Virus record (IMG/VR): IMGVR_UViG_3300043448_000106
Location: 1 to 36,111 of that record
DNA length: 36,111 nt
Direction: 5' to 3' (one strand)
From: a virus
In this document: positions 32,739 to 36,111 of the stretch, piece after piece
How the letters are laid out: every line of letters begins with the position of its first letter
How positions within the stretch are numbered: position 1 is the stretch's first letter
Program-made: the position numbers and the translations under genes
Notes under the pieces: generated by a model
Told to the model about the DNA's origin: nothing
What the model saw: the letters and a program-made list of their open reading frames with translations, nothing else
Databases searched by the model: none

Positions 32739-32968
32739 TCGTCGTCATCCCCGAATAAGACCTGCATCTTGGCCGTCTCGATCATCCACAGGGCCTCCTG
32801 CCGCGTGACGTCACCAGAGCTGCGGATCCACAGCGTGCCCTCTGGCGTGTGCCCCAGCACAAAAACCGACGTCAGCCCGCGCTTGATGCCGTCCTGCATC
32901 ACGTCGTCCGCGGTCGGGCCGTCATGCTCCGGCATGCCAACCAGACGTATCACGTTGTCACTCGCCAT
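32735..32968 (-). CDS. Small protein between the terminase subunits
   Basis: This is a 77-residue protein starting MASDNVIRLVGMPEHDGPTA. A beta-strand pattern (LTSVFVLGHTPEGTLWIRSS) and a C-terminal helix (RQEALWMIETAKMQVLFGDD) suggest a compact alpha/beta fold. Proteins like this recur between terS and terL in phages, function unknown. The start at 32968 has GGAG upstream and overlaps the TerS end by 11 bases; an ATG at 32986 is less likely. Confidence 0.6.
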   Translation of the reverse strand: MASDNVIRLVGMPEHDGPTADDVMQDGIKRGLTSVFVLGHTPEGTLWIRSSGDVTRQEALWMIETAKMQVLFGDDDE

Positions 32969-33425
32969 CGTTGACGCTCCCCTCAATCGTGATGCCGCCG
33001 TCGCGGTGCTTCTTCAGCGCCTCGAGGTGCAGTTGGTTGATATTGATCGTCACGCTCGGGCCGTTGTTGTTCTGCCGGAAGCGGTTGGGGTCGTTGACCG
33101 ATGCGAGCCACTTGCGGACGTCAATGCGCTCCTTGGCCACCGCCACCTGCTCTCGCGAGATGTTTCCCACGTTCGCCATCTCGTCGGCGATGTCCAGAGC
33201 CTCGTCGGCCAGCTTGTCCGCGAACTCGCTGCGGGCCTCCAAGATGACGGCCTTGTAATCCGGGTGCGCGTTCAGGTGCCGGCTCAGGTAAGAGCGGCTG
33301 CAGCCCAGCTCGGTCGCGAGATCCGATATCTTGCCGCCCTCGGCGATGTAATCCTGCAGCCACTCCGGGCCGCCGCGCGTGTCGATTTCTGCGAGCAGCT
33401 TCTTGCGTAACGCCTTGCCTGCCAT
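32958..33425 (-). CDS. terS: Terminase small subunit
   Basis: This is a 155-residue protein. An N-terminal HTH (GGKISDLATELGCSRSYLSR, about residues 30-50) would bind the packaging start site. A coiled-coil oligomerisation part (about 60-95: FADKLADEALDIADEMANVG) and RKWLASVNDPNRFRQN follow, as in small terminases that form rings. The C-terminal NINQLHLEALKKHRDG probably contacts the large subunit. Upstream and overlapping the small gene before TerL. Confidence 0.85.
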   Translation of the reverse strand: MAGKALRKKLLAEIDTRGGPEWLQDYIAEGGKISDLATELGCSRSYLSRHLNAHPDYKAVILEARSEFADKLADEALDIADEMANVGNISREQVAVAKERIDVRKWLASVNDPNRFRQNNNGPSVTININQLHLEALKKHRDGGITIEGSVNDGE

Positions 33426-33475: not shown

Positions 33476-34108
33476 TCAATCTATGTACGACCAGCCGCCT
33501 TTGGCGATCTGACAGTGGCGGGCTATGGTGCGCGACGTCTTGCCCACAGCCACAGCCGCCAAGCTCGCGCTGGGGAATATGCCGAACGGCGTCTGCACGG
33601 GCTTATTCCTCGGATGCGTCGTACGATCCAGAAGGTGCCGACCGAGGCGGTCTCCGCTTGCCGTGCGACCCTTTTCCTTCGCGTCCCGGCTGTTCTCAAG
33701 GTGGGTGCCGCCGCGCAGGTGGTTCGGGTTGACGCATGACGGGTTATCACAAACGTGCATCACGACGGGGTGGTGCGTCTCGCCTGTCGCCAGCGCGTAT
33801 GACATGCGGTGCGCCAGCACGTTGTCTCCGGCCAGCGTGATGATGCCGTACCCGCCCCTGGCCTTCGTGCCGATCCAGATGTGGCACGCGTCCGGGCCGC
33901 CGCCGGTGTAGATCTTGGCGCGGAACTTATCCTCAAGGTCTGCGTTCCAAAGTTTCAAAATTTTTGCGACCGTCGCGCCAGTCGGCGTTCTGGCATGGGT
34001 GTACGCCCCGGGCTCCTTCTTGCCGGCGCGGCGCTCCCGCATGTAGCACGCTTGGCACATGCCGCGGACCGCGGCTGGCTTCTCGGGATGGTTTTTACAG
34101 TTAGTCAT
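33476..34108 (-). CDS. HNH endonuclease with N-terminal zinc finger
   Basis: This is a 210-residue protein. CKNHPEKPAAVRGMCQACYM (Cys4, Cys18, Cys21, and His7 possible) forms a zinc site at the N-terminus. The HNH core reads ACHIWIGTKARGGYG, LAHRMSYALATGE, VVMHVCDNPSCVNPNHLRGG and GRTASGDRLGRH. The C-terminal FGIFPSASLAAVAVGKTSRT then IARHCQIAKGGWSYI resembles the NUMOD DNA-binding repeat of homing endonucleases. As it lies directly upstream of the terminase it may be a homing nuclease or may help cut DNA in packaging, as HNH proteins do for some cos phages. GGGAGG precedes the ATG at 34108. Confidence 0.85.
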   Translation of the reverse strand: MTNCKNHPEKPAAVRGMCQACYMRERRAGKKEPGAYTHARTPTGATVAKILKLWNADLEDKFRAKIYTGGGPDACHIWIGTKARGGYGIITLAGDNVLAHRMSYALATGETHHPVVMHVCDNPSCVNPNHLRGGTHLENSRDAKEKGRTASGDRLGRHLLDRTTHPRNKPVQTPFGIFPSASLAAVAVGKTSRTIARHCQIAKGGWSYID

Positions 34109-35537: not shown

Positions 35538-35611
35538 CGTCATATCTCCTCTCTGGCTTTTTTTTAGCATGCCTCACTCTCACCTCACCTCACTCTCCAA
35601 AACCTCTCTTT

Positions 35612-35653
35612 CTCCTCACCCTAAACCCCCCTTTAGGGGGGTAGGGTGAGGAG
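35612..35653. repeat. Long palindrome 1
   Basis: Inverted repeat with arms CTCCTCACCCTA + CCCCCC and GGGGGG + TAGGGTGAGGAG, about 18 paired bases, with a 2-base bulge on the left arm and a TTTA loop (35632-35635). It lies between two leftward genes and would form a very stable hairpin in RNA or a cruciform in DNA. No T run follows on the minus strand. Confidence 0.85.
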
Positions 35654-35664
35654 GGGGATGTTTT

Positions 35665-35712
35665 ACCTCAGTCTTCCTCAGTCTTTCCTCACCAACTGAG
35701 GAAGACTGAGGT
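35665..35712. repeat. Long palindrome 2, built from tandem CCTCAGTCTT units
   Basis: A perfect 18-base inverted repeat (35665-35682 and 35695-35712) with a 12-base spacer. Each arm consists of two CCTCAGT units separated by CTT, so it is a palindrome of direct repeats. The right arm begins 6 bases past the stop of the 35719 gene. With palindrome 1 and several CTCAC/CCTCA copies in 35571-35600 it makes a repeat-dense 145-base region. Confidence 0.88.
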
Positions 35713-35718
35713 GAGGTT

Positions 35719-35988
35719 TTACCGGAACAGTTTGTCGATGCCGGCCTCCTCGCGGGCGCGTTCCCAAGCCTCTCTGGCCTCCGCCTTCATGGTCGGCGGG
35801 CGGCCCGTCTTGATGTCTCGTGTCGCGCCCGTCCTGTCCACGATCATGATGTTCTCCTTCGGCCCGCGAGGCTCTGATGCCTGCCTGCGGGCCGTCTCGA
35901 TGGCCTCTCTTCTGGCCCTGTCCTCGGCCGTCGGCCCGTGCGCCGACTTGGTTATCATGGCGCGTGCGTTCATGTCCGAGATGGTCAT
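35719..35988 (-). CDS. Hypothetical charged helical protein
   Basis: This is an 89-residue protein beginning MTISDMNARAMITKSAHGPT. Arg/Glu/Ala-rich helices (AEDRARREAIETARRQASE, then EAREAWERAREEAGIDKLF) flank a short central section (IMIVDRTGATRDIKTGRPPT). GGAGGT lies 5 bases upstream of the ATG at 35988, which decides the start over 36024. The composition suggests nucleic-acid binding or assembly, not a recognised family. Confidence 0.55.
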   Translation of the reverse strand: MTISDMNARAMITKSAHGPTAEDRARREAIETARRQASEPRGPKENIMIVDRTGATRDIKTGRPPTMKAEAREAWERAREEAGIDKLFR

Positions 35989-35989
35989 C

Positions 35990-36111
35990 TCACACCTCCC
36001 CCTGCATCTCTTCACTGCACTCACCGCAGACGAGCCGCATGGTCGACTTGGCCCACGCCTTGTCGCCGCAGCACGGGCAGGTGAACTTGACCTTGCTCAT
36101 GTCCTTCTTCT
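35990..36111 (-). CDS. C-terminal zinc ribbon of a larger protein, probably SprT-like (partial)
   Basis: Only the last ~39 residues are in the window. They read KKDMSKVKFTCPCCGDKAWA, then KSTMRLVCGECSEEM. The CPCC...CGEC arrangement is a four-Cys zinc ribbon, and the K(F/Y)xCPxCGxxAWxK...LxCGxCxxxM pattern is that of the C-terminus of SprT-like phage proteins (zinc metalloprotease-related). The frame is open to the window end, and the internal ATG at 36100 has a poorly spaced ribosome binding site, so a longer protein is more likely than a 36-residue one. Confidence 0.55.
   Translation of the reverse strand, partial: KKDMSKVKFTCPCCGDKAWAKSTMRLVCGECSEEMQGEV

Follow-up and report, generated by a model that had tools for sequence, protein, structure and literature searches.

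The intergenic stretch at 35571-35718 of a 36-kb virus record is very probably (roughly 0.86) a phage replication origin of the iteron type, to be bound, judging from comparison with relatives, by the C-terminal winged helix of the phage's own primase-helicase. The record, all 36 111 nt of which were analysed, is called the window below. In relatives the repeat word of this cassette changes in concert with that winged helix, and where the word has the form TG-N-GG its middle base follows a single residue of the protein, position 756.

The cassette in the window

The preliminary description had placed two long palindromes and many CCTCA-type units between genes. Both palindromes were found, at 35612-35653 and 35665-35712, the region is indeed intergenic, and CCTCA/TGAGG is enriched, with 11 copies in 146 bp compared with 60 in 36 kb (both strands). 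Among longer words, GGTGAGG has five of its seven window copies inside the 146-nt stretch, and ACTGAGG four of six. The palindromes and the density of TGAGG/CCTCA are far above chance. Six first-order Markov simulations of the complete window produced no comparable inverted repeat, and neither did 3000 shuffles of the 146-nt stretch; the rest of the 36 kb has only two inverted repeats, both weaker. Folding each strand as single-stranded DNA gave z-scores of -8.1 and -9.1 relative to dinucleotide shuffles (matched by 0 of 200).

The cassette (35571-35718, minus strand) lies between two minus-strand genes, 3′ of the replication module, in a slot and with an architecture kept in about 80 relatives. 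Inverted iterons at 35695-35717 (plus strand; TGAGG cores at 35697-35701, 35707-35711 and 35712-35716), in a layout that relatives share, make one arm of hairpin 1 (35663-35714), whose palindrome at 35665-35712 has 18-nt arms, 18/18 paired, and a 12-nt gap. The direct iteron array at 35665-35691 (minus strand) has cores at 35687-35691, 35676-35680 and 35666-35670, spaced by 11 and 10 bp; other unit classes are also phased at 10-11 bp. Hairpin 2, the central palindrome (35612-35653; 18-nt arms, 16/18 paired, 6-nt gap), holds an inverted pair of GGTGAGG iterons in its arms (35614-35618 on the minus strand and 35647-35651 on the plus strand). Its tip CCCCCCTTTAGGGGGG (35626-35641; CCC-TWWA-GGG) is common to most unit classes and occurs also in Roseobacter phages and in the distant locus L095. 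A third iteron group spans 35572-35592 (minus strand), with cores at 35588-35592, 35583-35587 and 35572-35576. An iteron origin should have a short word repeated in direct orientation at helical spacing, and such an array occurs in the window as in most unit classes. As to an AT-rich unwinding region, a further feature of such origins, the window cassette has short A/T runs only; the tip of a marine clade (ATATATA) and the cassette of phage CRP-821 are AT-rich.

Scans of the cassette for a tRNA, a promoter or a terminator-like site were empty, in keeping with the earlier remark that neither hairpin has a terminator T run, and no Rfam family reached its gathering threshold there.

Gene neighborhood

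The head, lysis and terminase genes of the window are on the minus strand. Downstream of the cassette is a conserved gene, P0001 (34962-35537, minus strand), which served as bait for relatives. Its ORF was annotated from 35570, but its true start is likely 35537, because the relatives begin with M(A)xRP. P0001 was considered as the terminase small subunit and this was ruled out, that gene being at 32958-33425; an HNH endonuclease gene (33476-34108, minus strand) adjoins the latter. A programmed frameshift at the A8 run of P0001 was dropped since relatives do not conserve that run.

Upstream of the cassette is P0002, a small 101-aa gene (35719-36024, minus strand) whose position is not conserved, and then the 3′ end of an SprT-like gene (36000-36111, minus strand) cut by the contig end. 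The near-identical contig L004 runs past this end, through the SprT-like gene and into the C-terminus of the primase-helicase; the window contig itself has no helicase, and the window-type C-terminus was taken from L004. Longer relatives have the order RuvC-like resolvase, exonuclease VIII, Gp2.5-like SSB, primase-helicase, (small genes), cassette, P0001.

In the phages with one helicase C-terminal type (domain B), small genes that look AP2-like by eye lie between helicase and cassette (L068:4418-4790, L080:4285-4613), bordered by CGGCGCA repeats.

Fixed architecture, changing word

About 80 close loci were collected via P0001 and about 60 more distant ones were added; repeated P0001 alignment scans returned the same 80 close loci, and new clades needed single-query and domain queries. 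In both sets the slot beside the replication genes is conserved in architecture but not in sequence. An inverted copy stands ~19 bp before three direct copies spaced by 10-11 bp, followed by a hairpin with copies in its arms and the CCC-TWWA-GGG tip, and then by more copies before P0001. The repeat word varies between relatives, with all copies changing in concert. The words seen are GGTGAGG, GGTGGGG, GGTGGGA, GGTGTGC, CTTGAGG, ACTGTGG, ACTGCGG, GCGCCACTGG, GCGCCGCTGG and GGTTACAAGT, and the distant MAG loci L094 and L095 have TGTGTC and TGTGA. The four GGTGTGC cassettes have ~4 copies each, which is the background of the automatic count.

The tip is not universal. A marine clade (L177, L189 and their relatives) has the alternating AT palindrome ACGTATATATACGT in place of CCC-TWWA-GGG, L159 has a similar one, and the GTGTGC and GTTACAAG classes lack the CCC-TWWA-GGG tip. 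The cultured Roseobacter phages CRP-821/831 (TTTATAC) and CRP-811/823 (TTTGTAG) use the same slot with unrelated words and a CCCTTTAGGG tip. Between CRP-821 (L084/L089) and CRP-811 (L085/L090) the iteron word and the predicted recognition helix differ, the helicase C-terminus being otherwise similar. The publication on these two phages mentions neither a replication origin nor iterons.

The primase-helicase and its word

The phage primase-helicase is one 770-aa protein with a primase-like N-terminus, an AAA_25 motor like that of RSF1010 RepA, and a C-terminal winged helix. AAA_25 is its only Pfam match, RSF1010 RepA its sole PDB profile match (1G8Y, E 2.3e-8) and also its top Foldseek fold match (1olo, 1nlf). 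The full-length model was poor (pLDDT 52), so the C-terminal domain was modeled alone; it is predicted as a winged helix with pLDDT 85, and Foldseek relates it to generic winged helices (BLM RQC, DnaD), none with E below 0.001. No match to a RepC homologue was found.

Residues 1-640 of the helicase do not sort by word, pairs with different words being about as alike as pairs with the same word, whereas the last 84 residues do, identity between the B-word type and the others not exceeding 20%. A tree of residues 1-640 requires 16 or more changes of word class, and in every independent pair on that tree the C-terminal type changes with the word. Domain B goes with its word in six of six independent pairs (sign test p 0.03), and Lys at residue 756 with GGG in five of five pairs on well-supported branches (p 0.06; eight pairs over all branches). 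The match persists in genomes where intervening genes put 0.5-1.6 kb between helicase and cassette. The word thus appears specific to a cognate initiator encoded nearby, and the C-terminal domain of the helicase is the putative reader of the iterons downstream of its own gene. It is telling how the two sides fit, the conserved part of the enzyme pairing with a mostly conserved hairpin and the variable winged helix with variable iterons.

In three otherwise similar phages (L037:1497-5000, also L040 and L053; type C), a nuclease-like gene, a DUF5906 primase-helicase and an AT-rich stretch with GGTTACAAGT iterons stand in place of the whole primase-helicase and origin slot. DUF5906 was found in this replacement only.

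Residue 756 and the middle base

Residue 756, in the wing turn of the predicted winged helix, is the only column that separates the words within the common domain. In the first set it was Gln in 27/27 GAG types, Lys in 10/10 GGG types and Arg in 2/2 TGC types. Further contigs were chosen by protein domain alone and their cassettes read afterwards. The newly fetched Lys types had GGGG or GGGA, a Gln type with 46% identity had ACTGAGG, a word also present in the window, and residues not seen before came with other bases, TGTGG for Thr and Ala and ACTGCGG for Asp. A scripted tally covered 101 distinct combinations of domain and cassette, 91 of them with a clear TGNGG array. These 91, many of which are related and so represent far fewer independent events, gave Gln with A in 55, Lys with G in 14, Ala with T in 15, Thr with T in five and Asp with C in two, with no contradiction. 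Outside the tally are four Lys types with TGGGA, unscored by the script but showing GGTGGGA or GTGGGA, three Arg types with counts at background, and three Gln types whose cassette was out of range or undetected.

Near-identical pairs are the sharpest cases. Between L177 and L189 the C-terminal domains are 89% identical and the wing residue changes from Gln to Ala; eight of nine iteron copies change from A to T, while only 17 of 134 other positions differ (117 unchanged). L259 (PRQG, GGTGAGG) and L257 (LRTG, TGTGG) are 87% identical. L004, of the window type (IRQA, TGAGG), has an SprT gene closest to those of the GGGG types L054 and L039 (0.83-0.89 identity) and a domain 77% identical to that of L054, yet wing and word both differ from L054.

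Gln-A, Lys-G and Asp-C are contacts expected in protein-DNA recognition, and we infer that residue 756 itself would contact the middle base. On balance we favor a one-residue code, in which the wing tip reads the middle base of TG-N-GG directly and phages re-code the residue together with all 7-11 iterons, yielding many mutually private systems. Such re-coding perhaps protects against theft of the origin or the helicase by satellites or competing phages. The same iteron array was sought elsewhere, as in possible satellites, and 34 contigs came up; the five checked, being new or having two arrays, all have the helicase, and no satellite was seen among them. A single-residue code with repeated re-coding of origins seems new; an incomplete literature search returned no report of a one-residue origin code.

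Proposed mechanism

The TGAGG words would be iterons bound by the winged helix of the primase-helicase. With copies spaced by one helical turn, the motor would be loaded on one face of the DNA; inverted copies would load a second motor in the opposite orientation. The central hairpin with its CCC-TWWA-GGG tip may be the site of strand opening and initial priming. The repeats, the architecture, the slot, the joint swaps of domain and word and the match of wing residue with base are read directly from the sequences; physical binding, direct contact of residue and base, helicase loading and the role of the tip are inferred from them.

Alternative readings

The preliminary description had listed an origin, a partition or recombination site, a protein-binding array and an RNA element as possibilities, and had proposed a minimum of cumulative GC skew as a check. 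What has emerged combines two of these, a probable protein-binding array at a replication origin, and neither the RNA nor the terminator reading finds support. The skew check was negative: cumulative skew of the window just falls to its end, and the detrended minimum in two complete genomes of Roseobacter phages that have the same cassette is 5-6 kb off, where transcription diverges.

That skew leaves the site unmarked would suit a cassette that is an operator or a centromere-like partition site for the C-terminal domain or for a stand-alone winged-helix protein, with the origin elsewhere. Some genomes do encode such a protein: small proteins with the winged-helix signature of the helicase (RES-QS-W ... 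RGR) and wing adjoin the cassette at L057:3379-3744, L044:4426-4839 and L039:4079-4669, and are possibly origin-binding regulators or decoys. Most genomes lack one beside the cassette, however, the promoter scan of the region was empty, and the word swaps along with a replicative primase-helicase, type C changing the whole replication protein and the word. We consider this reading improbable, though the strongest of the rivals.

There is little chance that the hairpins act in transcript RNA, whether in processing, attenuation or stability. Both neighboring genes run through the region on a single strand, and alignment of relatives, the other check proposed earlier, did find pairing kept by compensatory change (at 8/13 consensus pairs of hairpin 2). 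Many of these changes, however, are the repeat word switching on both arms and tracking the predicted DNA-binding domain; because an inverted word switches on both arms, such covariation need not mean RNA. The concerted switches also reach unpaired direct copies, on both strands, the loop letters of the tip flip between TAAA and TTTA among relatives, and Rfam and terminator evidence is absent, as given above.

Equally slight is the chance that wing and word are linked by hitch-hiking, in which neighboring DNA moves as a block and the two have no functional fit. Helicase end and cassette are near each other in many genomes, but the match survives up to 1.6 kb of intervening genes, L004 has an intervening SprT gene and a domain backbone like those of GGGG types with a wing and word that differ together, and the signal falls on one residue whose pairing with a base recurs identically in distant clades. 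As the arms consist of the same word that covaries with the helicase, readings as a telomere-resolution site or an attachment site were set aside.

Finding a phage origin is usually difficult, and so is predicting which initiator is specific for it. With an origin bound by the helicase's own winged helix, the origin can be spotted by eye in metagenome contigs, the partner residue can be named, and the fit of enzyme and origin becomes readable from sequence. The near-identical natural pairs (Q/A with A/T, Q/T with A/T, Q/K with A/G) are ready-made test sets, and with versions of the cassette present in two cultured Roseobacter phages, CRP-821 and CRP-811, the scheme is testable. It also raises an evolutionary question, how at least eight dispersed copies and one residue change together without a dead intermediate.

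Comparison with known systems

In SaPI and SCCmec elements, the C-terminal domain of a helicase binds iterons directly downstream of its own gene (PMC7581432). SaPI Rep and SCCmec Cch2 resemble the phage cassette in pairing a mobile-element helicase with short iterons downstream of the gene and inverted repeats nearby (PMC7581432). Their helicases are of D5/DUF927 or Primase_Cterm types, whereas the phage motor is AAA_25 and RepA-like, outside D5/DUF927; Cch2 has three AAGTG iterons, and a residue-to-base code was not reported for SaPI or Cch2 (PMC7581432).

In RSF1010 (IncQ), as summarized in PMC4234260, separate proteins bind the iterons, unwind, and prime at hairpins. Its oriV shares with the phage cassette a hexameric helicase of RepA type, iterons, and hairpins thought to be priming sites (PMC4234260). 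RSF1010 divides the work among three proteins, RepA, RepB′ and RepC, while the phage has one polypeptide and iterons of ~7-10 bp, with no separate RepC or RepB′.

The origin of pRN1 is a stem-loop lying downstream of the gene for a primase-helicase that ends in a winged helix, and the authors predicted the same arrangement in phage BIP-1 (PMC4234260). It shares with the phage primase, helicase and winged helix in one protein and a downstream stem-loop of variable sequence and conserved shape (PMC4234260). The helicase of pRN1 is of SF3 type, and neither iterons nor specific binding were found there, whereas the phage has plain iterons and an AAA_25, RepA-like motor that is not SF3. The alpha protein of satellite phage P4 likewise joins primase and helicase and binds origin repeats through a C-terminal winged helix, as described in PMC4234260, but its primase and helicase families are unlike those of the phage here.

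In the PLE satellites of Vibrio cholerae, the DNA-binding domain of RepA and the origin covary and have been swapped as modules several times (PMC8263062). Those are whole-domain swaps between two types, in the RepA_N family, without a single-residue code (PMC8263062).

The phage cassette would thus unite known schemes, iterons for loading and a hairpin for opening or priming. The best explanation is that it works like the origins of SaPI Rep/SCC Cch2, P4 alpha and RSF1010 while belonging, as tested, to none of them.
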